Below are positions 3,099-32,245 of a stretch of DNA of 36,300 nt, in pieces (position 1 is the stretch's first letter; each line of letters starts with the position of its first letter). The DNA is from a virus, in the IMG/VR virus record IMGVR_UViG_3300044530_000424, positions 1-36,300 of that record, one strand, 5' to 3'. Position numbers and translations under genes: made by a program. The notes beneath the pieces were generated by a model. The model saw nothing but the letters and a program-made list of their open reading frames with translations. It was not told where the DNA came from and searched no databases.

Positions 3099-3244
3099 CA
3101 AAACAAATGTTTGACTGTGACTCATGCGAGACACAAGGGATTATAACAATCCGAACAGATGGTGTTGAGAAAAATGATATTATCTATTGCCCAATCTGTG
3201 CAAGTCCAATCTTTAGAGATGAAGACGACACGGATGACGAATGA
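3095..3244 (+). CDS. Small zinc-ribbon-like protein (49 aa)
   Basis: A short ORF starts on the ATGA that overlaps the nuclease stop and ends on an ATGA that overlaps the next gene. It has two CxxC knuckles, CDSC near residues 8-11 and CPIC near residues 32-35, and an acidic tail (DEDDTDDE). This is a minimal zinc ribbon. Function is unknown; binding nucleic acid or a protein partner would fit. Tight coupling on both sides supports it as a real gene. Confidence 0.7.
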   Translation: MTKQMFDCDSCETQGIITIRTDGVEKNDIIYCPICASPIFRDEDDTDDE

Positions 3245-3681
3245 GTTGGACTCATAACGGAAAATTAGTAACCGAATTGCCAGAGTGCGAAGGCTTTGTC
3301 TACTTGATATCTAACAAGATTGATGGTAGACAGTATATCGGCAAGAAATTAGCAAAGTTTTCCAAAACGTCTATTAAGACTGTAGTACTGAAATCTGGTG
3401 AAAAGAAAAAGAAACGAGTAAAGACAAAGGTTGAATCTGACTGGATGAAATACTGGTCATCATCAATTGAATTGCAACACGATGTTAAGACATTAGGTGA
3501 AGAAAATTTTACTCGTGAGATTATTCATTTCTGCCAAACCAAGGGTGAATGTTCGTACCTTGAAATGAAAGAACAGATCATAAACGAAGTACTAATACAA
3601 CCAGACAAATGGTACAATGCCTTTGTTGGTGGTAAGATTCATCGTAATCATGTAAAAAATTTATTTAAAGAGGTAAAGTAA
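3241..3681 (+). CDS. GIY-YIG-like putative endonuclease, conserved phage protein
   Basis: 146 residues. The N-terminal part holds a GIY-YIG core: VYLISNKIDGRQYIGKK at about residues 20-36 gives the 'VYLI' and 'YIG' strands with a following Lys pair. A basic KKKKRVKTK stretch near residues 58-66 could bind nucleic acid. The central and C-terminal parts resemble a family I recall in T4-like phages rather than the Seg homing enzymes, and no NUMOD repeats are seen. The gene overlaps neighbours on both sides by a few bases (ATGA, TAATG), arguing for an operon member and not a recent insertion. The target is unknown. Confidence 0.65.
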   Translation: MSWTHNGKLVTELPECEGFVYLISNKIDGRQYIGKKLAKFSKTSIKTVVLKSGEKKKKRVKTKVESDWMKYWSSSIELQHDVKTLGEENFTREIIHFCQTKGECSYLEMKEQIINEVLIQPDKWYNAFVGGKIHRNHVKNLFKEVK

Positions 3682-6279: not shown

Positions 6280-6615
6280 ATGATAAATGCAAAAGAAGAA
6301 CTTGTAAACACGCTTGATGATATTACCAAAAAGCATTCGGTATCTTTAAAGTGTGCTTGGGTAACATACGAAAGTCATTATAAGGCATCTCATGCCTATT
6401 CTTCTCTGCCAATAGGATTTGAATTGGATGAATTCTTGTCATTTTTAGAAGAATTAGATTTTGACTATAACAATGGATATGGCGGCCAGCATTTACATGG
6501 CACAGTATGGTTTGATGACGGTTCATGGATGGAACGAGGTGAATACGATGGTTCGGAATGGTGGGAATACAAAACAACACCAGAGATTCCTGAAGATTTA
6601 AAATGTGTACAATAA
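6280..6615 (+). CDS. Hypothetical acidic protein (111 aa)
   Basis: ATG 6280 follows the previous stop directly. The C-terminal half has an aromatic/Gly-rich region (NNGYGGQHLHGTVWF, then SEWWEYK) that looks like a beta fold with exposed Trp residues. The promoter for the DNA ligase is embedded in its last codons (from 6605). Function is unknown. Confidence 0.65.
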   Translation: MINAKEELVNTLDDITKKHSVSLKCAWVTYESHYKASHAYSSLPIGFELDEFLSFLEELDFDYNNGYGGQHLHGTVWFDDGSWMERGEYDGSEWWEYKTTPEIPEDLKCVQ

Positions 6616-14032: not shown

Positions 14033-14575
14033 ATGATTAGAAAAATAGCATTAATGCTAAAAGATGCTGGAACAGTTGAGATTGACAAAGATACTATTCA
14101 TAATGATGTACATTTAATGGCTTCTAGTATTTTTGAAAAACCTTTCATGAGAAAGGAAAGATCATTTGAACAAGTGTATGAACACTGCGCGTATACTGCT
14201 ATCGAGTATGCTCTTGCTAATGTTATTGACGGACAACGCAATCCTTTAAAATTCGATAAGACTAATCCTGAGTCTTACAAATATGATGTTATTAAGGACG
14301 ATTTGAAATTTGAAGTAAAGAAACATGCTTTTAACAATTCCTATTTTACATATCAAAAGTCTAATATTAATACATTTCTTAAGCACTGTCAAACATTAGA
14401 CTATTTGGTAACTGCTACAATGGCAACTAATGTTGATTCTTACTTAATAGATTTTTACATGATTATTAATGCAAAGAAATTCTCAGATAATTTCAAGCAA
14501 TCAAAATTTAATGAAGGATGGTATTATGACCATCGATTCAATAATGACAATATTATTATTAAAACCCTGGAGTGA
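14033..14575 (+). CDS. Possible PD-(D/E)XK-type nuclease (180 aa)
   Basis: The centre carries YDVIKDDLKFEVKKHAF, with Asp85 followed by Glu94-Val-Lys96, the D...ExK spacing of the restriction-endonuclease fold, preceded by a helix with acidic residues (EQVYEHCAYTAIEYAL). The following YLVTATM strand fits the fold. The family is not one I can name. It heads the operon that contains dCMP hydroxymethylase, so cleavage of unmodified DNA is conceivable, but this is inference from position. Confidence 0.45.
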   Translation: MIRKIALMLKDAGTVEIDKDTIHNDVHLMASSIFEKPFMRKERSFEQVYEHCAYTAIEYALANVIDGQRNPLKFDKTNPESYKYDVIKDDLKFEVKKHAFNNSYFTYQKSNINTFLKHCQTLDYLVTATMATNVDSYLIDFYMIINAKKFSDNFKQSKFNEGWYYDHRFNNDNIIIKTLE

Positions 14576-19955: not shown

Positions 19956-20174
19956 ATGGCGCAATTTGAAAAATTAGATGAATATCTTATCGTTAATACC
20001 AATACAAAGAATGGTATGTTATCAGCAAAATCACTTTGCAACGCATTGGTACTTGTTGACGACTTGAACCAAAAGTGTATAGAACATAGCACTGCCACCA
20101 GATACAAAGTCATTGTTAAACCAGATTGGGAATGGATTGGTTGGGACGAAGTTAAAATTTTAGTTGATATTTGA
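19956..20174 (+). CDS. Hypothetical protein (72 aa)
   Basis: Start set at ATG 19956 (MAQFEKLDEYLIVNTN), downstream of the -10 at 19922; the longer reading from 19878 would begin upstream of the promoter. An alpha/beta small protein with a C-terminal VKPDWEWIGWDEVKI. It precedes the RNA ligase on the same transcript. No family is recognised. Confidence 0.6.
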   Translation: MAQFEKLDEYLIVNTNTKNGMLSAKSLCNALVLVDDLNQKCIEHSTATRYKVIVKPDWEWIGWDEVKILVDI

Positions 20175-20185
20175 GGAGAACTTAT

Positions 20186-21232
20186 ATGCCTGTAGAATTT
20201 AGAAAAATGGTTACTATCAATCCAGTAGTTGAAATCAAATCCATCGCTGGTGCTGATTTGATTTGCGCATACAGAGTTAAAGGTTGGTGGGTAGTTGACC
20301 AAGTGGGAAAATATAATGTAGGTGATTTAGTACTCTATGCTGAAATCGATTCTTGGATTCCTCATGATATTGCTCCATTCTTATCCAAAGGTAAAGAACC
20401 TAAAGAGTATAATGGTGTTAAAGGTGAACGATTAAGAACTATCAAGTTGAAAGGTCAAGTGTCTCAGGGATTATTATTACCAATGAATCTTTTGGACTCT
20501 ACTGAATATAATAGTCATTTGCCAGACTCAGCAGAAACTATAGATGTATCTGATTTTTTGAATGTTCAGAAATGGGAAGCTCCTATTCCTGCAAATCTTC
20601 GTGGTCAGATGAAAGGTAATTTTCCTGCATTTATCCGCAAGACTGACCAAGAAAGATGCCAGAATTTGGTAGAAGAAATTGGCCATGAATTTTTCCACCA
20701 ATGTCATTTTGAAGTGTCTTTGAAGTTAGATGGCTCGTCATGCACCGTTTATCATAATGCTGGTTTGGTAGGTGTCTGTTCAAGAAATTTAGATTTGAAA
20801 CTTGAGCAAGAAGGCAATTCATTCGTTGAGATTGCCAAGTCGACTGGATTACTGAAAGCATTGATTACACTTAATGAGAATATTGCGGTCCAAGGTGAAT
20901 TAATGGGACCTGGTATTCAAGGTAATAAAGAAGGATTTGATTCTCATAAGTTGTTCATCTTCGATATCTTTGACATTGATAACCAATGCTATCTTGAATT
21001 TTCTGAAAGAATGAATTGTATTCTTAGACTTAAAGATGCTGGTTATACTGGTGACATAGTACCTACCTATCATGTTGGTCCTTTACAGCATGGAAATATT
21101 GAAGACCTATTGAAAATGGCTGATGGTCCATCGATTAATGCTAAGGTTAGAGAAGGTTTGGTATTCAAACGAACTGATGGTCAATTCTCATTCAAGGCAA
21201 TCTCTCAAAAATTCCTATTGAACGAAAAGTAA
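20186..21232 (+). CDS. RNA ligase, DRB0094/Rnl5-like family
   Basis: 348 residues. N-terminal OB-like region about 1-100 (GWWVVDQVGKYNVGDLVLYAE), then a nucleotidyltransferase domain with motif I KLDGSS and adenylated Lys180, motif III-like IFDIFDI, motif IV-like EGLVFKR and motif V FKAISQKFL. The N-terminal OB before the ligase domain is the layout of the Deinococcus DRB0094 (Rnl5) type, not T4 Rnl1/Rnl2. It should repair nicked RNA, for example tRNA cut by host defence. Start ATG 20186 after AGGAG. Confidence 0.85.
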   Translation: MPVEFRKMVTINPVVEIKSIAGADLICAYRVKGWWVVDQVGKYNVGDLVLYAEIDSWIPHDIAPFLSKGKEPKEYNGVKGERLRTIKLKGQVSQGLLLPMNLLDSTEYNSHLPDSAETIDVSDFLNVQKWEAPIPANLRGQMKGNFPAFIRKTDQERCQNLVEEIGHEFFHQCHFEVSLKLDGSSCTVYHNAGLVGVCSRNLDLKLEQEGNSFVEIAKSTGLLKALITLNENIAVQGELMGPGIQGNKEGFDSHKLFIFDIFDIDNQCYLEFSERMNCILRLKDAGYTGDIVPTYHVGPLQHGNIEDLLKMADGPSINAKVREGLVFKRTDGQFSFKAISQKFLLNEK

Positions 21233-21572: not shown

Positions 21573-21845
21573 ATGGTTGTTCAAGATAAAGTAACTGGTA
21601 AAATGTATGATCCTCAAGAGGAATTTGATAATTTTTTTAGTCAACCTGAAGTAACTGAACAAATGGTAAGAATGAAAAATCATGATTATGAACAAATGGT
21701 AAGAATGAAAAATCATGATTATGAACAATTAGTTCTTAATATGTACTTCGGCGGAATGTCAATAAAAGAAATAACGTATGAAATAGGAATTCCTGTTGAT
21801 GAAGTTAAAAACATTATTTCATACATGTCATCAGCGGAGAATTAA
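21573..21845 (+). CDS. Helix-turn-helix-like protein with an internal tandem duplication (90 aa)
   Basis: The C-terminal half, YEQLVLNMYFGGMSIKEITYEIGIPVDEVKNII, reads as a sigma-4-like or Mor-like HTH (helix, GMS turn, recognition helix). Two exact copies of the 11-residue EQMVRMKNHDY (33 bp each) precede it, lengthening the linker to the N-terminal part. AGGAG precedes ATG 21573. A DNA-binding regulator is plausible; the target is unknown. Confidence 0.65.
   Translation: MVVQDKVTGKMYDPQEEFDNFFSQPEVTEQMVRMKNHDYEQMVRMKNHDYEQLVLNMYFGGMSIKEITYEIGIPVDEVKNIISYMSSAEN
21657..21722 (+). repeat. 33-bp perfect tandem duplication
   Basis: Units 21657-21689 and 21690-21722 are identical and in frame inside the HTH gene; a third partial unit (GAACAA) follows. 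The absence of mismatches indicates a recent duplication. Confidence 0.95.
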
Positions 21846-21846
21846 A

Positions 21847-22035
21847 ATGAGCATTTATAAAGAAAATGGTTATACCAATAGAAATAATTATTTAAGTCAT
21901 TTGTCAGAAGATTATGGCATTGAACTTGGAATAGTACTTGAACTTGCGGATTTATTTGGTCCTGAAGAAGATTTTGATGGATTATTAGAAGCACTAAATG
22001 ACTATGGCAATTATGGATTTGGAGAGTTATTATGA
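21847..22035 (+). CDS. Conserved small phage protein (62 aa)
   Basis: ATG 21847 (MSIYKENGYTNRNNYLSHL). The pattern LSEDYGIELGIVLELADLFGPEEDFDGLLEAL is one I recall from other phages, function unknown; a longer frame from 21796 runs through the upstream gene and is rejected. It is acidic and overlaps the next ATG by ATGA. Confidence 0.65.
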   Translation: MSIYKENGYTNRNNYLSHLSEDYGIELGIVLELADLFGPEEDFDGLLEALNDYGNYGFGELL

Positions 22036-22064
22036 TAGATATTAAAACAAACACGGAGAATAAC

Positions 22065-22220
22065 ATGAAAGGTCAAATAAGGTTTATATTAGCATTGTTT
22101 ATTATTTTTACTGCTGTCAATCTAGAAGGAATAGTTGATATGCCAACAGAACTTACAATTGCTTTTGTTGGTATTATGATTGGAGCTTGGGGAATGGTTG
22201 ATTCATTGGAGAGAAAATAA
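22065..22220 (+). CDS. Small two-helix membrane protein (51 aa)
   Basis: Start set at ATG 22065 (MKGQIRFILALFIIF), with CGGAG 6 bases upstream; an in-frame ATG at 22032 with its own GGAG would add 11 hydrophilic residues. Two hydrophobic helices (about 6-20 and 30-45) connected by a Pro/Glu loop. I recall MKGQIRF-type small proteins in T4-like phages, uncharacterised. TAATG with the next gene. Confidence 0.6.
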   Translation: MKGQIRFILALFIIFTAVNLEGIVDMPTELTIAFVGIMIGAWGMVDSLERK

Positions 22221-22420
22221 TGAGCGGAAAGAATTTTATCTATTTTATTGATGTACTATTAGCAGTTTCTATACTGCCATTCTTTTTCTACATTGCAACT
22301 TCTGGATTCTTTGTTGTTGCAGCATTCTTTATCATTCTGATAATTGAGATGATGGTCGATTATACTCGAGTTAGAAAGTACTTTGTCAATATGATGTTAA
22401 GAGCAAAATGCGATGTCTGA
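22220..22420 (+). CDS. Small two-helix membrane protein (66 aa)
   Basis: ATG 22220 after GGAGAG. Two hydrophobic segments (FIYFIDVLLAVSILPFFFYI and FFVVAAFFIILIIEMM) and a basic C-terminus (RVRKYFVNMMLRAK), so the C-terminus is probably cytoplasmic. Holin-like size, but no holin family is recognised. It overlaps the next gene by 8 bases. Confidence 0.55.
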   Translation: MSGKNFIYFIDVLLAVSILPFFFYIATSGFFVVAAFFIILIIEMMVDYTRVRKYFVNMMLRAKCDV

Positions 22421-22616
22421 TATAATTAACAAACTTAGAGAAGAACAATCAAGATTGTATTGCAACTTACAAGTCAAATACGACCAATTGTTCCGACTTG
22501 AAGATGAAGTAAAACGACTGAAGTATGAAATATTTAGAATGGAAATAGATAAATGTTTGGTTGAACATGACTTAGGAAAGGAACTCAAGAATGAAAATAA
22601 ATCCAACGGTAATTAA
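22413..22616 (+). CDS. Small coiled-coil protein (67 aa)
   Basis: Almost entirely a charged heptad coil (IINKLREEQSRLYCNLQVKY, RLEDEVKRLKYEIFRMEI). It follows the two membrane proteins by overlap and overlaps the next gene by 26 bases. Oligomerisation is likely; role unknown. Confidence 0.6.
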   Translation: MSDIINKLREEQSRLYCNLQVKYDQLFRLEDEVKRLKYEIFRMEIDKCLVEHDLGKELKNENKSNGN

Positions 22617-22842
22617 TTACATTATCAATAGTAATATCAAGTACAGACAAGACCTAGAATCAATGGTGGATACTATGAAATTCAATCAAGTGCTTACTCA
22701 AATCAAAGAAGCAAATGCTGTTGCTCATTTGATTGATGTTCAAAACAAACAACATAATGATGGACTATACAAAGATCCTACTTGGATTAATGGTGTTCAT
22801 TGTCACAATTCAATCAGCAAACACAACTATACTAAACTATGA
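22591..22842 (+). CDS. Hypothetical protein (83 aa)
   Basis: GGA precedes ATG 22591 inside the previous gene. A basic, Asn-rich helical protein (INYIINSNIKYRQDLESMVD) with several His in its C-terminal part (VHCHNSISKH). ATGA overlap with the next. No family is recognised. Confidence 0.6.
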   Translation: MKINPTVINYIINSNIKYRQDLESMVDTMKFNQVLTQIKEANAVAHLIDVQNKQHNDGLYKDPTWINGVHCHNSISKHNYTKL

Positions 22843-23306
22843 AAATTGAAATTGGAAAAACTTACGGGACTGGACATGGCACTAAAGTTACTATTGTAGG
22901 AACAGATTATACCATTCGTTCTGATTATAAATTTATTGGCACCACTTTTGATGGTTCAGTAAGAACTTATGATAACTATAACGAGCAAGGTATATGTTTA
23001 TTCGGCGATTGGGATAGTAATTTATTAAAGGAATTTAACAGATCATTCGGATTTCCTGAAACTGAAAAACCTTATCATGGAACTCCATATTACTTTCCAG
23101 ATATGTCACCTGATGGATACTCTGGCTGTACTTGGTCCGATGATGCATTCGACCATTGTCTATTGATAAATGGACTGCTATATTTGGATAAAGAGGATGC
23201 TATTCAGGCGTCTGAAATCATAATTAATCTGCTAAAGGAGTATAATGAAAATCGTATCAAAAGAAGAGATAATGGAGAGACTTGGCTGTTCAAAAACCCA
23301 GGTTGA
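22839..23306 (+). CDS. Hypothetical protein (155 aa)
   Basis: ATGA overlap with the previous gene. A beta-rich N-terminal half (GKTYGTGHGTKVTIVGTDY) and a central Tyr/Gly/Asp-rich loop (GTPYYFPDMSPDGYSGC) that looks like a phage conserved block. Its last 62 bases overlap the start of the next ORF, unusual here, so its end or the next start may be misassigned. Confidence 0.6.
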   Translation: MKIEIGKTYGTGHGTKVTIVGTDYTIRSDYKFIGTTFDGSVRTYDNYNEQGICLFGDWDSNLLKEFNRSFGFPETEKPYHGTPYYFPDMSPDGYSGCTWSDDAFDHCLLINGLLYLDKEDAIQASEIIINLLKEYNENRIKRRDNGETWLFKNPG

Positions 23307-23430
23307 GATGGCGGAATATTCTGGTTATATCCCACCTTCAAAAGATGGAGTTTGGGATGCCGATAAACTTGAAGAATATTTGGTAAGATGGGATGCTAAA
23401 CTCAAACGTAAAGCGGAATCAATGCAATGA
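23245..23430 (+). CDS. Small HTH-like protein (61 aa)
   Basis: AAAGGAG lies 5 bases before ATG 23245. The pattern KEEIMERLGCSKTQVEMAEYSGYIPPSKDGVWDADKLEEYL reads as a MerR/excisionase-like winged helix: HTH, then a wing and a DKLEEYL helix. It overlaps the previous frame by 62 bases, and its end overlaps the following micro-ORF. A small DNA-binding factor is plausible. Confidence 0.55.
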   Translation: MKIVSKEEIMERLGCSKTQVEMAEYSGYIPPSKDGVWDADKLEEYLVRWDAKLKRKAESMQ

Positions 23431-23585
23431 CTAGTCATTGCAAAGGATGTAAATACCATCACATTGCAGGACATCCTAAAGATTCAAGATTAATAAAGCA
23501 TAATGATTGGTGCTGTGCTTTTGGTAAAACTGCGTCAAAATGCGTTGGTCATTGTAAACTACAAAATGCTAAGGAACCGAAATGA
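23427..23585 (+). CDS. Cys/His-rich small protein (52 aa)
   Basis: ATGA overlap on both sides. Cys at 5, 8, 29, 30, 39 and 43 plus several His (HCKGCKYHHIAGH, WCCAFGK, CVGHCKL) suggest zinc binding. I recall similar small phage proteins without assigned function. Confidence 0.6.
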   Translation: MTSHCKGCKYHHIAGHPKDSRLIKHNDWCCAFGKTASKCVGHCKLQNAKEPK

Positions 23586-23836
23586 GCGATTTAATCCAAC
23601 TAGTAAGCAAAAAAGAAAAACCATCTGATGCTGAATTCCAAAAGCAACTAGATGATGAATACTATGAACAGATGACTGATCTTAGAGATGAAATAGATTT
23701 GGCTCTCACGTTAGCATATACCAAAGATGGATTACTATTGACGGTATCTAATGGAGTTGATTCAAAAACTGCTCTTTGGATGATTGAAGAGTTTCGGATG
23801 AATTTGTTAACTGGTTCATTTAACGATTATAAATAA
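23582..23836 (+). CDS. Hypothetical acidic protein (84 aa)
   Basis: ATGA overlap with the preceding gene. An acidic helical protein (DDEYYEQMTDLRDEIDLALT), with no recognised family. Last + strand gene before the minus-strand endonuclease-like gene. Confidence 0.65.
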   Translation: MSDLIQLVSKKEKPSDAEFQKQLDDEYYEQMTDLRDEIDLALTLAYTKDGLLLTVSNGVDSKTALWMIEEFRMNLLTGSFNDYK

Positions 23837-23849
23837 GGAATAAAAATGC

Positions 23850-23877
23850 AAACTGGGAATATTACAGTTCCCAGTTT
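23850..23877 (-). terminator. Hairpin terminator, mainly for the minus-strand gene
   Basis: 10-bp stem AAACTGGGAA (23850-23859) / TTCCCAGTTT (23868-23877). On the minus strand it is followed by a TTTTTATT run; on the plus strand the following bases are not T-rich, so it mainly ends minus-strand transcription. Plus-strand text before it (GGAATAAAAATG) looks like a gene start that leads nowhere. Confidence 0.7.
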
Positions 23878-23886
23878 CCTAATTAT

Positions 23887-24657
23887 CTAAAAATATTGTT
23901 TAAATTCAGGATATAATCTAGAAATACATGGTTTAGTATAAGTCTTTCTAGTTTCAATAATCGATAAGAATTTTGGTTGAGGAATTCCTTTCTTTGCTGC
24001 AGATATATTTGGTTGCTTCTTGCCTTTCTTTGTGGCGGATAATTTGTTACCAAATCCTTCTGGTTTAGGAATGCCAGTTTTTACATAAGATAATTTTGCA
24101 CCAAATCCTTCTGGTTTAGGAATGCCTTTAGTACTAGATGATAATTTTGCACCAAATCCTTCTGGTTTAGGAATTCCTTTAGTACTAGATGATAATTTTG
24201 CACCAAATCCTTCTGGTTTAGGAATTCCTTTATTTTTAGAAATTCCTCTATTTCCAGGTTTTCCTTTATTATGAGCCGGTTTTCCTTTTGCTGAAGCAGA
24301 TCGTTTAGCATTAGATTCTTCTGATTGTTTCTTGCCAGAAGTAGTAAATCTGATTTTACTACCGTGATGACATCTTCTGTTAAGCATCAATGGATTTTTA
24401 AGTTCTTGGTATATTAGAAACTGTTCTAGGTCGTATGCCTCGAGTGGATCAACAAATTCCTGGATGATGGTATAGTTAAATTCTTGGAATCTTGGTTCAA
24501 CTGTTTTTGATGATGTAAAATAGTCAATACCTAAATCCTGATTTGCTGGGACTTTATTGGCTTTACGAAATCCAAAATAAAATTCGCCAGTAGTTGGATT
24601 GTCTAGTCTATAGACATAGGATAATACTGGTTCTTGATATATACTTGTGCTGGTCAT
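23887..24657 (-). CDS. GIY-YIG homing endonuclease-like protein with NUMOD-type repeats
   Basis: 256 residues on the minus strand. Residues about 12-40 carry a GIY-YIG core, SYVYRLDNPTTGEFYFGF. The middle is a Gly/Lys-rich run of NUMOD3-like motifs (SGKKQSEESNAKRSASAKGK), then four near-identical 17-residue repeats (GIPKPEGFGAKLSSSTK) and a final ATKKGKKQPN unit. This layout fits Seg-type free-standing homing endonucleases, with the repeats as sequence-reading arms. It is oriented against its neighbours and flanked by hairpins, consistent with insertion. Minus-strand AGGAA precedes the ATG. Confidence 0.75.
   Translation of the reverse strand: MTSTSIYQEPVLSYVYRLDNPTTGEFYFGFRKANKVPANQDLGIDYFTSSKTVEPRFQEFNYTIIQEFVDPLEAYDLEQFLIYQELKNPLMLNRRCHHGSKIRFTTSGKKQSEESNAKRSASAKGKPAHNKGKPGNRGISKNKGIPKPEGFGAKLSSSTKGIPKPEGFGAKLSSSTKGIPKPEGFGAKLSYVKTGIPKPEGFGNKLSATKKGKKQPNISAAKKGIPQPKFLSIIETRKTYTKPCISRLYPEFKQYF
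24041..24234 (-). repeat. 51-bp coding repeat array (about 4 units)
   Basis: Units of 51 bp (17 codons) encode GIPKPEGFGAKLSSSTK and variants. The middle copies are nearly identical in DNA and outer ones diverge, so the array grew from within. A shadow frame is also repeated but has no coding features of its own. Confidence 0.9.
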
Positions 24658-24691
24658 GATAGTTCCTTGAATTATTGATAGAATGATTAGT

Positions 24692-24727
24692 GCTAGTGGG
24701 ATGTAGGAGTCCGCGACTAGCTTTTTG
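24692..24727 (+). terminator. Possible terminator between the endonuclease gene and the next promoter
   Basis: GCTAGT (24692-24697) pairs with ACTAGC (24716-24721), with inner GGA/TCC pairing, and TTTTT follows (24722-24726). It would stop + strand read-through, or it may be the 3' end of a small RNA. The loop is long, so strength is uncertain. Confidence 0.5.
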
Positions 24728-24756
24728 TTTGTATGATCTATTTATAAGATTTAGAT

Positions 24757-24785
24757 GTTGACATTTTTAGAATAGATGATATAAT
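24757..24785 (+). promoter_or_regulatory. Promoter (GTTGAC variant) for the co-chaperonin unit
   Basis: -35 GTTGAC (24757-24762), 17 bp, TGaTATAAT (24780-24785). GAGGAA precedes ATG 24810. Confidence 0.8.
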
Positions 24786-24809
24786 AGATTTTTATCATGA
24801 GGAAATAAA

Positions 24810-25043
24810 ATGCAGGTACTTGGCAAAAACGTATTAGTGTTAAAACAGAAACTAGAATATACTGGATTGATTCAAGGTGTAGAGTCTGATGATAATATTA
24901 GAGCAAAGGCAATGAATCTTGGTGATGACGTTACCCTAGTGGAATTAGGTAATATTCTTATCCTTAACTGGAAGAAAGCTAAATGGGTATCAGGTGAGTT
25001 GTATGTTATCCATGAAGATGAAATAGCCGCAATTATTGAATAA
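24810..25043 (+). CDS. Miniature GroES-like co-chaperonin (77 aa)
   Basis: The sequence tracks the Cpn10 barrel: VLGKNVLVLKQKLEYTGLIQG (strand, then a short TGLIQG in the mobile-loop position), AKAMNLGDDVTLVELGNILIL (the GD.V..G core), and GELYVIHEDEIAAIIE, matching the GroES EEVLIMSESDILAIVE end. T4 encodes a GroES replacement (gp31, 111 aa) needed to fold the capsid protein with GroEL; this one is only 77 aa, with a short mobile loop. Whether it replaces GroES is inference. Confidence 0.65.
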   Translation: MQVLGKNVLVLKQKLEYTGLIQGVESDDNIRAKAMNLGDDVTLVELGNILILNWKKAKWVSGELYVIHEDEIAAIIE

Positions 25044-25054
25044 GGAATTATATT

Positions 25055-25282
25055 ATGTGTGAAACAGTATTGACAGCAGTTAGAGTTAAAATCCTTAAAG
25101 CCAACATGAGAACTTATTGGTATGCCGGTAAAATTGATGAGGAATTTTGGGTACTTAAAGATGATGACAATTCAGGTTATAAATTAGTCGAACACACTGC
25201 GGGTCGATGGATTGACTTTGATGACTGTGAAGTTATCCGCGCTGGTAATCTTCGAGTCATTACTACAATAGAGGAATTATAG
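25055..25282 (+). CDS. Small conserved-looking phage protein (75 aa)
   Basis: GGAATTATATTATG start. Pattern WYAGKIDEEFWVLKDDDNSGYKLVEH...WIDFDDCEVI looks like a small SH3-like barrel I recall from other T4-like phages, function unknown. The next gene (GTG) begins on its last codons. Confidence 0.6.
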   Translation: MCETVLTAVRVKILKANMRTYWYAGKIDEEFWVLKDDDNSGYKLVEHTAGRWIDFDDCEVIRAGNLRVITTIEEL

Positions 25283-26073
25283 TGAAAATAGACGTCATGA
25301 GTGATGTCCATCTTGAATTTGGTTTCTATGAACCAGCGAACGAGAATGGTGCTGATGTTCTCGTTCTTGCCGGTGATATTTGTGTACTTGAGCAATTAGG
25401 AAAAGAGTCTTATACTAGTATAAAAGAGTTCTTCGAGATGGCATCACATAATTATGATGATGTTGTCTATGTTATGGGCAATCACGAACACTATCATGGT
25501 GATATTCTAAATGCGACCACAATTTTTAAAGAAAAGTTCCATATACTTAAGAACATTCATCTCCTGGACAATAGTAGTATTGCTATCGGTGATACTACTT
25601 TTATTGGGGGCACGCTTTGGACAAACTTTAATAATGATTCTTATGCAATGAAAACCATTGCTAGGATGATGAATGACTATAGATGCATTGACTATGACGG
25701 TAAATTGTTTACTGCGGGTAAATCGGTAGAATTGCATTATAATACTATGGAATACTTTAACAAGATGGTGCCAGCATTCCATAAAGTCGTCATGGTCACC
25801 CATCATTCTCCTAGTTTTAAAAATCTTAGCGAAAGATTTTCCCAAGGAAATTCATGTTCAGTTAATGATAACAATATAAGAAACCTGGCATACCATTCAA
25901 ATCTTGATTATTTTATACTAGGACATCCTCAAATTAAAGCATGGATTTCCGGACATACACATGATCCATTTGACCATTATCTTGGAGATACCAGACTTGT
26001 CTGTAATCCAAGAGGTTATATTGGATATGAAAAAACTGCTATTAATTATAAACCATTACAGATAGAGATATGA
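25282..26073 (+). CDS. Calcineurin-like metallophosphoesterase (263 aa)
   Basis: Di-metal motifs are in order: SDVHLEF with Asp8 and His10, AGDICV with Asp32, GNHEH with Asn67-His68-Glu69, THHSP and ISGHTHD. It should hydrolyse phosphomonoesters, phosphodiesters or cyclic nucleotides; the substrate is unknown. Start is GTG 25282 with GAGGAATTATA just upstream. A cyclic-nucleotide-degrading anti-defence role would fit the fold but is not supported by any specific residue. ATGA overlap with the next ORF. Confidence 0.8.
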   Translation: MKIDVMSDVHLEFGFYEPANENGADVLVLAGDICVLEQLGKESYTSIKEFFEMASHNYDDVVYVMGNHEHYHGDILNATTIFKEKFHILKNIHLLDNSSIAIGDTTFIGGTLWTNFNNDSYAMKTIARMMNDYRCIDYDGKLFTAGKSVELHYNTMEYFNKMVPAFHKVVMVTHHSPSFKNLSERFSQGNSCSVNDNNIRNLAYHSNLDYFILGHPQIKAWISGHTHDPFDHYLGDTRLVCNPRGYIGYEKTAINYKPLQIEI

Positions 26074-26192
26074 AAAAACAGACTCCTACACCAGCAATCC
26101 ACGAACAAAATCCAAACTATGAATCCAAAAGAGTAATGCACAATGGTTCTATTGTTGTACTGCATTTTGGACCCAAAAAGAAGACACGATGA
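26070..26192 (+). CDS. Small basic protein (40 aa)
   Basis: ATGA overlap at both ends. MKKQTPTPAIHEQNPNYESK, then a hydrophobic SIVVLHFG and a KKKTR tail. Translational coupling on both sides is the main support. Function is unknown. Confidence 0.5.
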   Translation: MKKQTPTPAIHEQNPNYESKRVMHNGSIVVLHFGPKKKTR

Positions 26193-26749
26193 AAGTATAT
26201 CTCGGCAAACCAAAAAATTTGTGGTTCGGTCCTTATCAATTAGCAGACCTATTAATGCACTTTGGAGTATCAGAAGATAAGTGCGATGAGATAGGAGAAA
26301 AGCTAGCAGATTCCTGGGTTAATGATTTCCTTAATTGGATATATGACCATAACCCGTTAAAGAAACCGACGGAAATAATCCATATTGACGACTGGGATAC
26401 TTGGAGTATGGATTACACTTTGGCCCCTATCATTCTTAAGATGCTGCAGAAATTCAAAGAAAATCTTCATGGTGCACCTGTTGTTGAAGATTGTGATGTG
26501 CCTGATAGTATCAAATCTATGAATGCTCCTAGAGTCAAAGAACTTTATGATACTGATGAATTCTATTTCAAACGATGGGATTATGTCATTGATGAGATGA
26601 TATGGTCTTTTGAGCATATTGTAAATGATGATTGGGAACACACAGTTCTGGTGCAGTTCAATGACCCAGAATCATATAAATTTATGCAAGACCGAGTAGA
26701 CAATGGTTTACGTCTATTTGGAAAATATTTCCGAAATCTATGGAGTTAA
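26189..26749 (+). CDS. Widely conserved phage protein of unknown function (186 aa)
   Basis: ATGA coupled to the 40-aa ORF. The blocks DDWDTWSMDYTLAPIILKML, AP, DTDEFYFKRWDYVIDEMIWSFE and GLRLFGKYFRNLWS match a family I recall across tailed phages, with no established function. It is acidic and Trp-rich, so it may bind protein partners. It lies two bases upstream of the endolysin, whose ribosome site overlaps its end. Confidence 0.75.
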   Translation: MKVYLGKPKNLWFGPYQLADLLMHFGVSEDKCDEIGEKLADSWVNDFLNWIYDHNPLKKPTEIIHIDDWDTWSMDYTLAPIILKMLQKFKENLHGAPVVEDCDVPDSIKSMNAPRVKELYDTDEFYFKRWDYVIDEMIWSFEHIVNDDWEHTVLVQFNDPESYKFMQDRVDNGLRLFGKYFRNLWS

Positions 26750-26750
26750 A

Positions 26751-27359
26751 ATGATTACTGTTGACAAATTCAAACAAATCTTTCCCGCATGTAAAAATCC
26801 TAATGACACAACAAAAGCACTTAATATTATTCTACCAAAATACGGAATCACTACAAAGGACAGACTCTGTGCATTCCTAGCTCAAACGGGACATGAATCA
26901 GGTAGCTTTAATACCCTTAAAGAAAATTTAAACTATAGCGCTGAAGGGCTTTGCAAAGTATGGCCTAAACGATTCCCTACTCTAGCAGAAGCACAAAAAT
27001 ACCATCGTAATCCCGAGAAGATTGCTAATAAAGTTTATGCTGGCAGAATGGGCAATGGACCAGAAGATTCTGGAGAAGGATTCTTATATTGCGGACGCGG
27101 TGCGATTCAATTGACTGGAAAAGAAAACTACACAAAATTTGCGTCAAGCATCGATATGGCAATAGAAGAAGCAGTAGCGTATTGTGAAACTAGAGAAGGA
27201 GCTATTGAATCTGCTTGTTATTTCTGGACTACTCATAACTTGAATGACATTGCAGATAAAGGTGATTTTGTAACATTGACTAAGAAGATTAATGGTGGCA
27301 CTACTGGACTTCCTGAACGTCAAGAAATATGGCATAAGGCATTGAAAGTTCTTTCTTAA
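26751..27359 (+). CDS. Endolysin, glycoside hydrolase 19 (chitinase-like)
   Basis: 202 residues. It cleaves peptidoglycan glycan strands at the end of infection. GH19 marks: AFLAQTGHESGSFNTLKENLNYS with catalytic Glu49 (HES) and Glu58 (KENL), and CGRGAIQLTGKENYTKF. No signal peptide or membrane helix, so it needs a holin. Start ATG 26751 after TGGAGTTAA; the frame from 26703 begins within the previous gene and is rejected. T4 uses a GH24-type lysozyme (E), so the lysis enzyme differs. Confidence 0.88.
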   Translation: MITVDKFKQIFPACKNPNDTTKALNIILPKYGITTKDRLCAFLAQTGHESGSFNTLKENLNYSAEGLCKVWPKRFPTLAEAQKYHRNPEKIANKVYAGRMGNGPEDSGEGFLYCGRGAIQLTGKENYTKFASSIDMAIEEAVAYCETREGAIESACYFWTTHNLNDIADKGDFVTLTKKINGGTTGLPERQEIWHKALKVLS

Positions 27360-27386
27360 TAAATAATTCTATTTGAAGGAATAACC

Positions 27387-27590
27387 ATGTTGTCATTTAA
27401 AGAATACTCATTAATGGAAGATGGATCTGCTGATGTTGCCAAGATTGGTGATGATATGTCAAAAGTAGATATTAATGTACTTACTACGCATTTGGCATTT
27501 CTTGCTAATGCTATTCCTGGTACAGTACAGTTTCAAATGAAGCAAGATATCGAAACAGAATTAGCAAATAGAAATGCAAAATTAGGATAA
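27387..27590 (+). CDS. Predicted internal head protein with capsid-targeting-like N-terminus (67 aa)
   Basis: MLSFKEYSLMEDG resembles the T4 capsid-targeting start, with a gp21-type site L-M-E then Asp (after Glu11). The mature part is helical and mixed-charge (VLTTHLAFLANAIPGTVQF). GGA precedes ATG 27387. It lies 28 bases after the endolysin and immediately before two more candidates. Head packaging is inferred from the N-terminus only. Confidence 0.5.
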   Translation: MLSFKEYSLMEDGSADVAKIGDDMSKVDINVLTTHLAFLANAIPGTVQFQMKQDIETELANRNAKLG

Positions 27591-27594
27591 AATG

Positions 27595-27623
27595 TTGTAC
27601 TTTAATACGGTTCTTGATATAAT
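27595..27623 (+). promoter_or_regulatory. Promoter (TTGTAC variant) for gene 27657
   Basis: -35 TTGTAC (27595-27600), 17 bp, TGaTATAAT (27618-27623). The spacer and -10 region are nearly the same as at 28565, but the dyad is eroded. Confidence 0.75.
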
Positions 27624-27656
27624 AGAATCTATACCACAACTTACTAAAGTAATCAA

Positions 27657-28562
27657 ATGAAAACATTTTACGAATATCTAACAGAATCTCCGCAAATACC
27701 GTCTAATTTTGCTCTCACATTAGATTCACTTACTCCAAAGAATAAGGATAAATTTGATGCGGCATTAATTACTCTTAAAGCCGCTATGGAACAAGGAAGC
27801 ATACGTAAAACAGATTTAGATAATATCAAATCTGTTTTCAATAATTCATGCGAGGCTACTTGGGAAAAACATTACCAATATGCTTATCTTAACCAACCTC
27901 GCGATGTTAGAGATGCTGCTCCTCATGCTAAAGAAGAGGAAGACATTTATTATAAAGCCAAAAATTTTAGAAATATGGATGGCATTATCAAGAAATATTC
28001 TAAATTTGCAAATACGTCTCAATTGATAGGATATGCTATTAGAATTGCCTCTGAGTATGCTTCACTTAAAGATATAATGGATCATTTGGCAACTAATATT
28101 GTTAAAGGCAAAGCTCCTTCATTAAACATTAAGCCTATTAATCCTAATCAAGTAAGAGGAACTTGTGGGTGGTGTTTACGTGATATTGCTATTGATAAAA
28201 GTGGTCTAATGTCTCACCATGGGTTTACAAGACCTGGAGTCGGATATCAAACACAATCATGCGCTGGTGTAAATTATAAAAATTTAGAAGTATCTCGAGA
28301 TGGATTGAAAGCCAGAATTAAAGTCACTGAACAAGAAAAGTCTAATTTAGAATCTCGTTCGAAAGACCTGCCGAAAGTTATAACTCTTAATGTACGAAAA
28401 ACAGGAAGTCGCGATATCATTACCATAGGAAAAGAAGATCCTAATTGGTCAAAAGCATATCACTCAACTGAAGTAAATCTCGAATCTGAGATTCGCAGTA
28501 TAACTAAAGAACTTGAGCAATTAAATCAAACGTTGATAAAGTGGGAAATAAAAACAAAATAA
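27657..28562 (+). CDS. Predicted head-packaged protein with Cys/His motif (301 aa)
   Basis: MKTFYEYLTES gives a capsid-targeting-like start with L-T-E then Ser (cut after Glu10). Near residues 168-202 is RGTCGWCLRDIAI, then SHHGFTRPGVGYQTQSCAGV: a C-x2-C, HHG-x2-RPG and SC arrangement that I recall in phage and plasmid proteins and that probably binds zinc. The C-terminus (YKNLEVSRDGLKARI on) is helical and ends in a coiled coil. Promoter at 27595; the next promoter begins two bases after the stop. Delivered with the DNA, it might act on host defence, which is inference. Confidence 0.6.
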   Translation: MKTFYEYLTESPQIPSNFALTLDSLTPKNKDKFDAALITLKAAMEQGSIRKTDLDNIKSVFNNSCEATWEKHYQYAYLNQPRDVRDAAPHAKEEEDIYYKAKNFRNMDGIIKKYSKFANTSQLIGYAIRIASEYASLKDIMDHLATNIVKGKAPSLNIKPINPNQVRGTCGWCLRDIAIDKSGLMSHHGFTRPGVGYQTQSCAGVNYKNLEVSRDGLKARIKVTEQEKSNLESRSKDLPKVITLNVRKTGSRDIITIGKEDPNWSKAYHSTEVNLESEIRSITKELEQLNQTLIKWEIKTK

Positions 28563-31677: not shown

Positions 31678-31784
31678 TGATTGATATTGGACCAAACTTG
31701 TTTGAATTACTATCAACAATAGTACACACCATTGGGGTAGTATTTGTGGTGTTTCTAATAATGAATGCTTATAACAAAATTTGA
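31677..31784 (+). CDS. 35-residue single-span membrane peptide
   Basis: TAATG junction with the previous gene. Mostly one helix (STIVHTIGVVFVVFLIMNAY). Ends three bases into the next gene's ribosome site region. Function is unknown. Confidence 0.5.
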   Translation: MIDIGPNLFELLSTIVHTIGVVFVVFLIMNAYNKI

Positions 31785-31798
31785 AGAGGAATTATAAA

Positions 31799-32245
31799 AT
31801 GTTAAAGAGTAACCCGATTATACAAGAACATCAATTACAAGAAGGCGTTTATCTAAGCGATTATTCGTTTCAGTTACATGCACTCGAGCGTTCTAAATCA
31901 TATATAAGCAATTATTCGTCTCGGTTACATGCACTCGAGCATTCTAAATCATATATTAGAGATCCTGAATTTTTAACAAATAGTTTTGCATGGTATTATG
32001 GCGTATGTGATGGAATTGAAAATTTACTTGAAGTCATCCCAGAACTGTTATCGCCTGACCGCGAATTTGTAGTGTTATTACATAGAATCAGTAAATCTAA
32101 TCAACCTAGATATGAAGGTTGGAGATGGCACAAATGGGGCGACTATATTGGTACACAAACTCCTACTACTGAATACATTTATGACGAACCAATAATCGAT
32201 TTAGTTTACTGCTACCATATCTACGAGACAATCAGTGAAAACTAA
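31799..32245 (+). CDS. Conserved phage protein with N-terminal tandem duplication (148 aa)
   Basis: GAGGAA precedes ATG 31799. The C-terminal part, FAWYYGVCDGIENLLEV, GWRWHKWGDYIGTQTP, EYIYDEP, resembles a conserved phage family of unknown function. Near the N-terminus a 17-residue unit is repeated: SDYSFQLHALERSKSYI and SNYSSRLHALEHSKSYI. Overlaps the secreted protein at 32235. Confidence 0.65.
   Translation: MLKSNPIIQEHQLQEGVYLSDYSFQLHALERSKSYISNYSSRLHALEHSKSYIRDPEFLTNSFAWYYGVCDGIENLLEVIPELLSPDREFVVLLHRISKSNQPRYEGWRWHKWGDYIGTQTPTTEYIYDEPIIDLVYCYHIYETISEN
31855..31956 (+). repeat. 51-bp imperfect tandem duplication
   Basis: Units 31855-31905 and 31906-31956 differ at about four positions and are in frame. 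Older than the duplication at 21657, judging by the mismatches. Confidence 0.9.

Follow-up and report, generated by a model that had tools for sequence, protein, structure and literature searches.

The GIY-YIG homing endonuclease gene described here lies on the minus strand of a 36,300-nt viral sequence (positions 1 to 36,300 of IMG/VR record IMGVR_UViG_3300044530_000424; this whole stretch is referred to as the window) and is preceded by a structured 5′ leader and a T4-type late-promoter-like box (Table 1). Homing endonuclease expression must spare the carrier phage. Judging from sequence comparisons, we consider it probable that the shared cis-acting leader and the late promoter give late, controlled expression of the nuclease and are exchanged independently of the nuclease domain. 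The leader family has a predicted, covarying structure that is absent from Rfam, and we did not find it described in the literature searched, which was mostly open-access. A sequence-only reading of the locus had centred on 51-bp repeats in the coding region; the repeats are the less unusual part of the locus, and the leader is the more surprising one.

Table 1. Features of the nuclease locus (window coordinates)
Feature	Position	Strand	Remark
GIY-YIG homing endonuclease gene, SegE-like	23887-24657	minus	256 aa
Four 51-bp / 17-residue units	24025-24228	minus	units 1 and 2 (24127-24228) identical
Intrinsic-terminator-like hairpin of the nuclease gene	23850-23877	minus	fold z -3.1
Inserted element, ~964 bp net	23851-24814		missing from four related contigs
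Left-behind ribosome site and start, GGAATAAAAATGCA	23837-23850	plus	left copy of the 12/14 direct repeat
GGAAATAAAATGCA: ribosome site and start for the gene downstream (24810-25043)	24801-24814	plus	right copy of the repeat
Sigma-70-like promoter TTGACA-16-TATAAT, outward	24758-24785	plus	12/12 match; faces the downstream operon
Conserved leader, structured (A-rich run; P1/P2 hairpin around the UCRCG/CYA internal loop; ACTAATCATTC tail)	24681-24727	minus	covariance models R1/R2
T4-type late-promoter-like box before the leader, TATAAATA	24739-24746	minus	position conserved in relatives

The window gene and its insertion site

The window gene is predicted, from its sequence and a structural model, to encode a free-standing, SegE-like GIY-YIG homing endonuclease. 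The protein matches PHROG 314 'homing endonuclease' (E=1.6e-13), and Y16, Y27, G29, E78 and N93, which represent the catalytic Tyr, Tyr-x-Gly, Glu and Asn, do not vary among the 14 proteins aligned. In the structural model, the core (pLDDT mostly 85-97 over residues 11-90) resembles the I-TevI catalytic domain (VIA) over model residues 12-96 with a middling Z of 6.6 (rmsd 3.0 Å, 79 residues aligned), and the restriction enzyme PD-T4-3 and UvrC with a Z of 5.9 each. The top 11 rows of the fold comparison are GIY-YIG nucleases throughout; Slx1, present in the list only below Z 3, was rejected as a match. The catalytic residues, the I-TevI fold match and PHROG 314 bear out the GIY-YIG core that the sequence-only reading had assigned. 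At E≤1, Pfam gave no match for the window protein alone, NUMOD3 (PF07460) included; SegE_GIY-YIG is matched by eight of the 14 aligned proteins and NUMOD3 by four. The terminator that had been ascribed to the gene was found on the minus strand, and the convergence claimed for both neighbours holds for the left one and fails for the right one, from which the gene diverges. A second short GIY-YIG-like gene in the window (3241-3681, plus strand, 146 aa) has no leader.

Comparison with relatives supports the view that the window gene is mobile and was recently inserted into this phage. Four related contigs (L047-L050) keep the flanking genes around an empty site, at which blastn joins window 23850 to 24794 within ~20 bp; three of them are mutually identical in the compared stretch and one is distinct, giving two sequences. 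Since the site is empty in these four contigs, the gene is not a universal feature of the locus with a fixed repeat number, the state that had been named as speaking against mobility. A 12/14-bp direct repeat bounds the insertion, and the empty-site relatives contain one copy only. Because the junction thus holds two copies of the relatives' single site, the original start was left behind by the insertion: the plus-strand start GGAATAAAAATG (23837-23848), already suspected of being stranded, is where the downstream gene formerly had its ribosome site and start. The homing endonuclease gene reached its intergenic site on a self-contained insertion.

The insertion includes an outward promoter that is absent from the empty-site sequences. 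The TTGACA-16-TATAAT sequence at 24758 is the only one within 22000-28000; the whole window has one further exact match. Among T4 homing endonucleases, promoters that serve displaced neighbours have been described before (PMC2988022). Plus-strand TGTACA/TTGACA-16-TATAAT-like sites with a 16-nt spacing occur in the window at 6606, 7936, 9662, 13986, 16871, 19900 and 24758; they are probably the phage's own early or middle promoters, and the promoter of the insertion is of the same type. A megablast search of the window region against isolated phages gave no match, and no Rfam intron was found in the window. At window 26748/26749, L050 carries ~1.3 kb extra (L050 4164-5462), a possible insertion polymorphism.

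Structure and covariation of the leader

The leader was detected through a comparison with a sister phage, because the window gene and a gene of that phage have the same leader and ends but different catalytic cores. The polymorphism is reciprocal: the sister phage is without the window insertion, and at sites that are empty in the window it has elements made up of a leader and a nuclease gene. Its first GIY-YIG gene (L031) is flanked by homologues of window 36223 and 36219, with no gene at this site in the window, and has in common with the window gene the late promoter box, the 5′ leader, the first eight codons, repeat-type units and the C-terminal tail. No terminator was seen at the 3′ end of the L031 element. 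A second nuclease gene occupies the nrdB/nrdA junction of the sister phage, whose window counterpart (877-941) is empty; the nrd names follow resemblance, and for the large-subunit gene the identity as ribonucleotide reductase was confirmed. In another contig (3300045971_000356), a leader-bearing GIY-YIG gene with a 56% identical core (L003:4305-6432) splits an RNA-ligase-like gene and lies on the opposite strand. The RNA-ligase-like gene, so named by resemblance only, is undivided in the window at 20171-21232.

The hairpin of the leader is 30 nt long and consists of a 6-bp P1 helix, a 4-bp P2 helix and an asymmetric loop with 5′-CRC-3′ opposite C or U. The window leader, which was among the 12 training sequences of R1, scores 67.6 bits with this model (E 5.6e-15) and is the only leader that the covariance model finds in the window. 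The TATAAATA box is not enriched window-wide (5 found versus 6.6 expected). An R1 search of 776 kb of loci recovered all 12 leaders and further copies, and it also found leaders by the L003, L013, L024 and L042 nuclease genes, which were known from protein similarity alone.

Covariation was evaluated in two alignments. The 12 distinct leaders, aligned with MAFFT and free of bias towards the structure, are 99.2% paired and contain 28 double-change cells, compared with 10.5 in shuffles, and both helices are compensated. The 21 distinct leaders, whose alignment was fitted to the model and is biased towards the structure, are 99.0% paired, with 67 double-change cells versus 21 in shuffles and a covariation of 0.817 versus 0.248; slid registers score far lower. 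P2 covaries although the scan pattern left its inner pairs free. Compared with shuffled sequence, the folding of individual leaders is only moderately better (z -0.9 to -2.1). No Rfam 15 family matched the window at E values up to 1, and in L136, L143 and L157 none matched over the leader.

In the larger subgroup of leaders, the Shine-Dalgarno region lies within a second hairpin, which has 82.5% pairing and double changes in 5/5 pairs; its pairing of 77.7% versus 57.1% shuffled corresponds to a z of 14 relative to re-paired halves. RNAalifold predicted the first hairpin and not the second in 40 leaders, and single-sequence folds form the second hairpin in some copies only. It is absent from the fold of the window leader, in whose subgroup the first hairpin lies ~14-23 nt from the promoter box, not 3-5 nt. 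In the second hairpin, sense C-A (antisense G-U) outnumbers sense G-U. These mixed wobble counts leave room for an antisense-terminator or DNA function, both of which are weighed below. At two pairs in columns 43-59 of alignment A6, sense C-A far exceeds G-U, as would be the case with a folded opposite strand. Two additional pairings were rejected: a pseudoknot joining the CTAA tail to the loop of P2, given that the loops are too variable, and a switch in which P1 would pair with ACCAGC of codons 2-3, which fits only GCTGGT leaders.

Distribution of the leader and the genes behind it

A scan of viral contigs with a short leader motif found the same layout upstream of many nuclease genes, one of them HNH-like. 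An RNA-only pattern, in which P1, the loop and a few following bases were fixed and neither proteins nor promoters served as a criterion, matched at least 120 viral stretches versus one in bacterial and archaeal genomes totalling 257 Gb. The single GTDB match (L334, an archaeal MAG) has no TAAATA box before the hairpin and was treated as chance. Among the matches listed, TAAATA is located within 25 nt upstream of 118 of 122 hairpins and at 3-5 nt in 114 of these, and the spacing between TAAATA and the stem is exactly 5 nt in 87 and exactly 3 nt in 20. Random 25-nt windows from the same loci contain TAAATA in 1.1% of cases. The Shine-Dalgarno region and the start codon also stand at a near-fixed spacing from the hairpin.

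What kinds of genes follow the leader? Nearly all of the 122 hairpins stand before homing endonucleases, whose folds are unrelated. Among the matches listed, the distinct downstream ORFs with a length of 60 aa or more number 109. PHROG 314 is matched by 68 of the 109 and PHROG 655 by 45 (both homing endonuclease), NUMOD3 by 44, HNH by 15, HNH_5 by 12 and GIY-YIG by 14, the family counts overlapping. One of the 109 ORFs has a TnsA-like Pfam match, and two downstream proteins (L241:256-909 and L261:12183-13097) are PD-(D/E)XK-like by inspection. PD-(D/E)XK is probably a third unrelated fold behind the leader, besides GIY-YIG and HNH. Leader types and nuclease cores combine independently of each other: L138 has a core with 76% identity to one behind the other leader type, and L135 has an HNH with 55% identity to one behind the other leader type. 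Because unrelated nucleases share the module and similar cores follow different subtypes, the module and the nuclease domain appear to be swapped by recombination. The exceptions to a downstream nuclease among the matches listed are L290, L215 and L222. In L290, no nuclease is left and the leader (143-174) directly precedes the gene for a terminase large subunit, possibly as a remnant after nuclease loss; in L232, which is likely a deletion remnant, the leader is fused to the nuclease tail.

Among 30 whole viral records, 15 contain a match at E≤1, 14 of these below 1e-5, and one 166-kb contig has seven leader places, weak ones included. A single leader immediately upstream of a nuclease gene was found in each of three cultured phages: Variovorax phage V45v66 (E 2.5e-8), Pseudoalteromonas phage XG4 (E 1.7e-5) and Rhizobium phage RHph_I1_18, whose leader has a weak score (E 0.007) but retains the box, loop and stems. 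In blastn searches against isolated phages, the window copy gave nothing significant and a consensus-like leader gave a weak lead to RHph_I1_18. The model search found no credible leader in T4, KVP40, ValKK3, Acj61, Aeh1 or Aeromonas phage 25; a T4 match at 14047 (E 0.08), where a matching stem and a nuclease ORF are both absent, was dismissed as chance. Seven cyanophages with related nucleases (S-SRM01, S-N03, ACG-2014f, S-B68, MA01, Sf-CH5 and B23) gave no leader match. The leader provides a sequence tag for homing endonucleases that annotation has missed, several carriers being labelled hypothetical. It also offers a natural series of module-core swaps for evolution studies, and the three cultured phages are suited to direct tests.

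Proposed function and alternative explanations

What is the biological function of the leader? We propose that the T4-type late promoter box, the two-helix hairpin leader, the Shine-Dalgarno region and the conserved first codons constitute a module that would act in cis to give late synthesis of the nuclease behind it at a controlled level. What we infer is where transcription starts, which strand folds, how expression is affected and that a factor binds. In the larger subgroup, transcription would start near the base of P1, and the late mRNA would therefore begin with or near a stem that displays the conserved loop. As the most likely route, the 5′ end of the late mRNA would be shielded and/or a phage or host RNA-binding factor would limit translation. 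Because the nuclease is not the same in every case, its own specificity domain is an unlikely candidate for such a factor. It is a more tentative idea, possible rather than probable, that one new structured-leader family and a T4-type late promoter form a portable module for unrelated nucleases and that one trans factor reads the UCRCG/CYA loop.

T4 homing endonucleases are expressed at middle or late times only, several with translational RNA structures (PMC3014915, PMC2988022). The T4 segA-segG genes (SegE_GIY-YIG, PF19835) have the same GIY-YIG core as the window gene and are likewise intergenic, free-standing and missing in relatives, with middle or late expression and neighbour promoters within or beside the element (PMC2988022). 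Unlike the T4 seg genes, the window gene has near-identical tandem 17-residue units and a leader that is common to unrelated nucleases. The leader-bearing nuclease at nrdB/nrdA of the sister phage occupies the same hotspot as mobE at nrdA/nrdB (PMC2988022); by sequence look it is GIY-YIG-like, not HNH as mobE is, and it has the shared leader. The seg43(25) hairpin of Aeromonas phage 25 is stable and located upstream of the ribosome site without masking it, but is a single case (PMC2988022), and an R2 search of the Aeromonas phage 25 genome found nothing. 5′ RNA structures that regulate homing endonucleases are already known as separate, unrelated hairpins; a homologous leader family common to unrelated nucleases was found neither in Rfam nor in the literature searched. 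T4 regulates gene by gene, whereas here one RNA-plus-promoter module seems common to GIY-YIG, HNH and apparently PD-(D/E)XK nucleases.

Other roles of the hairpin have to be weighed against late, controlled expression. The hairpin could be an ordinary ribosome-site mask of the I-TevI/mobE type that silences read-through until a late start inside the structure, as in the regulation of T4 and Aeh1 homing endonucleases (PMC3014915, PMC2988022), and the second hairpin of the larger subgroup does enclose the Shine-Dalgarno region. RNA structures near the start of late nucleases have been described case by case for I-TevI, I-TevII, I-TevIII, segB and Aeh1 mobE, with the late promoter placed such that late RNA is free of the structure (PMC3014915, PMC2988022). 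In contrast, the leader is one homologous covarying structure 3′ of the late-promoter box, and its first hairpin contains neither the ribosome site nor the start codon. Late transcripts would include most or all of the structure because the box is upstream of the first hairpin, and we find masking of this type very doubtful. It is similarly improbable that the hairpin is an opposite-strand intrinsic terminator against antisense transcription of the nuclease or its neighbours, with the A-rich box doubling as a U tract. An A run directly before the stem in many leaders reads as a stem and T run on the other strand, and sense C-A is equivalent to antisense G-U; however, the run is missing in L131, L137:4200 and L170:1852, and a terminator would not need the conserved UCRCG loop, the CTAA tail or the 5-nt promoter spacing. 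The hairpin might instead act as DNA, either as a folded single strand or as a cruciform, providing a recombination or capture site for domain exchange or insertion. The independent assortment of module and core, the presence of common ends around different cores in the window and L031 elements, and a wobble asymmetry that is not sense-specific would fit such a site. We nonetheless regard it as quite unlikely, given that the fixed spacing to the late-promoter box, the Shine-Dalgarno region and the start codon points to expression, and that each gene has one copy with no matching hairpin at the 3′ end, where the window element has an ordinary terminator.

The sequence-only reading held that the DNA-recognition arm grows by 51-bp repeats and thereby alters the target length, an explanation that is compatible with late, controlled expression from the leader and that we consider unlikely. 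The four 17-residue units that arise from 51-bp DNA repeats are real, as established by Tandem Repeats Finder (period 51, 3.8 copies, 92% matches, score 304, at 24038-24232) and by unit comparison. In order, the units are GIPKPEGFGAKLSSSTK, GIPKPEGFGAKLSSSTK, GIPKPEGFGAKLSYVKT and GIPKPEGFGNKLSATKK. At the DNA level, units 1 and 2 agree at 51/51 positions and the remaining pairs at 39-41/51. The identity of units 1 and 2 indicates a recent duplication that followed older ones, and the 51-bp units represent a recent local expansion in a basic repeat region of the nuclease. Variation in repeat number was observed among related proteins that share the leader and tail (one unit in L031 and L143), which together with the two identical units favours growth of the arm. 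At the exact site, however, the number is constant: two other contigs have the only copies there, and no repeat-number change within the locus was seen among the window and these two contigs because they are 100% identical to the window over 7-10 kb and carry the same allele. Growth of a recognition arm is further disfavoured by a repeat region that is modelled with pLDDT <50 and no confident structure and by the lack of a Pfam NUMOD3 match in the window protein. A low-complexity spacer is an equally possible role for the repeat region as lengthening of the DNA target. Elsewhere in the window, a 33-bp tandem repeat (2.2 copies, 100% identical) is located at 21656-21728, and a 51-bp tandem duplication that is unrelated to the nuclease repeats (2.1 copies, 91%) is located at 31850-31956, near the start of ORF 31781-32245.
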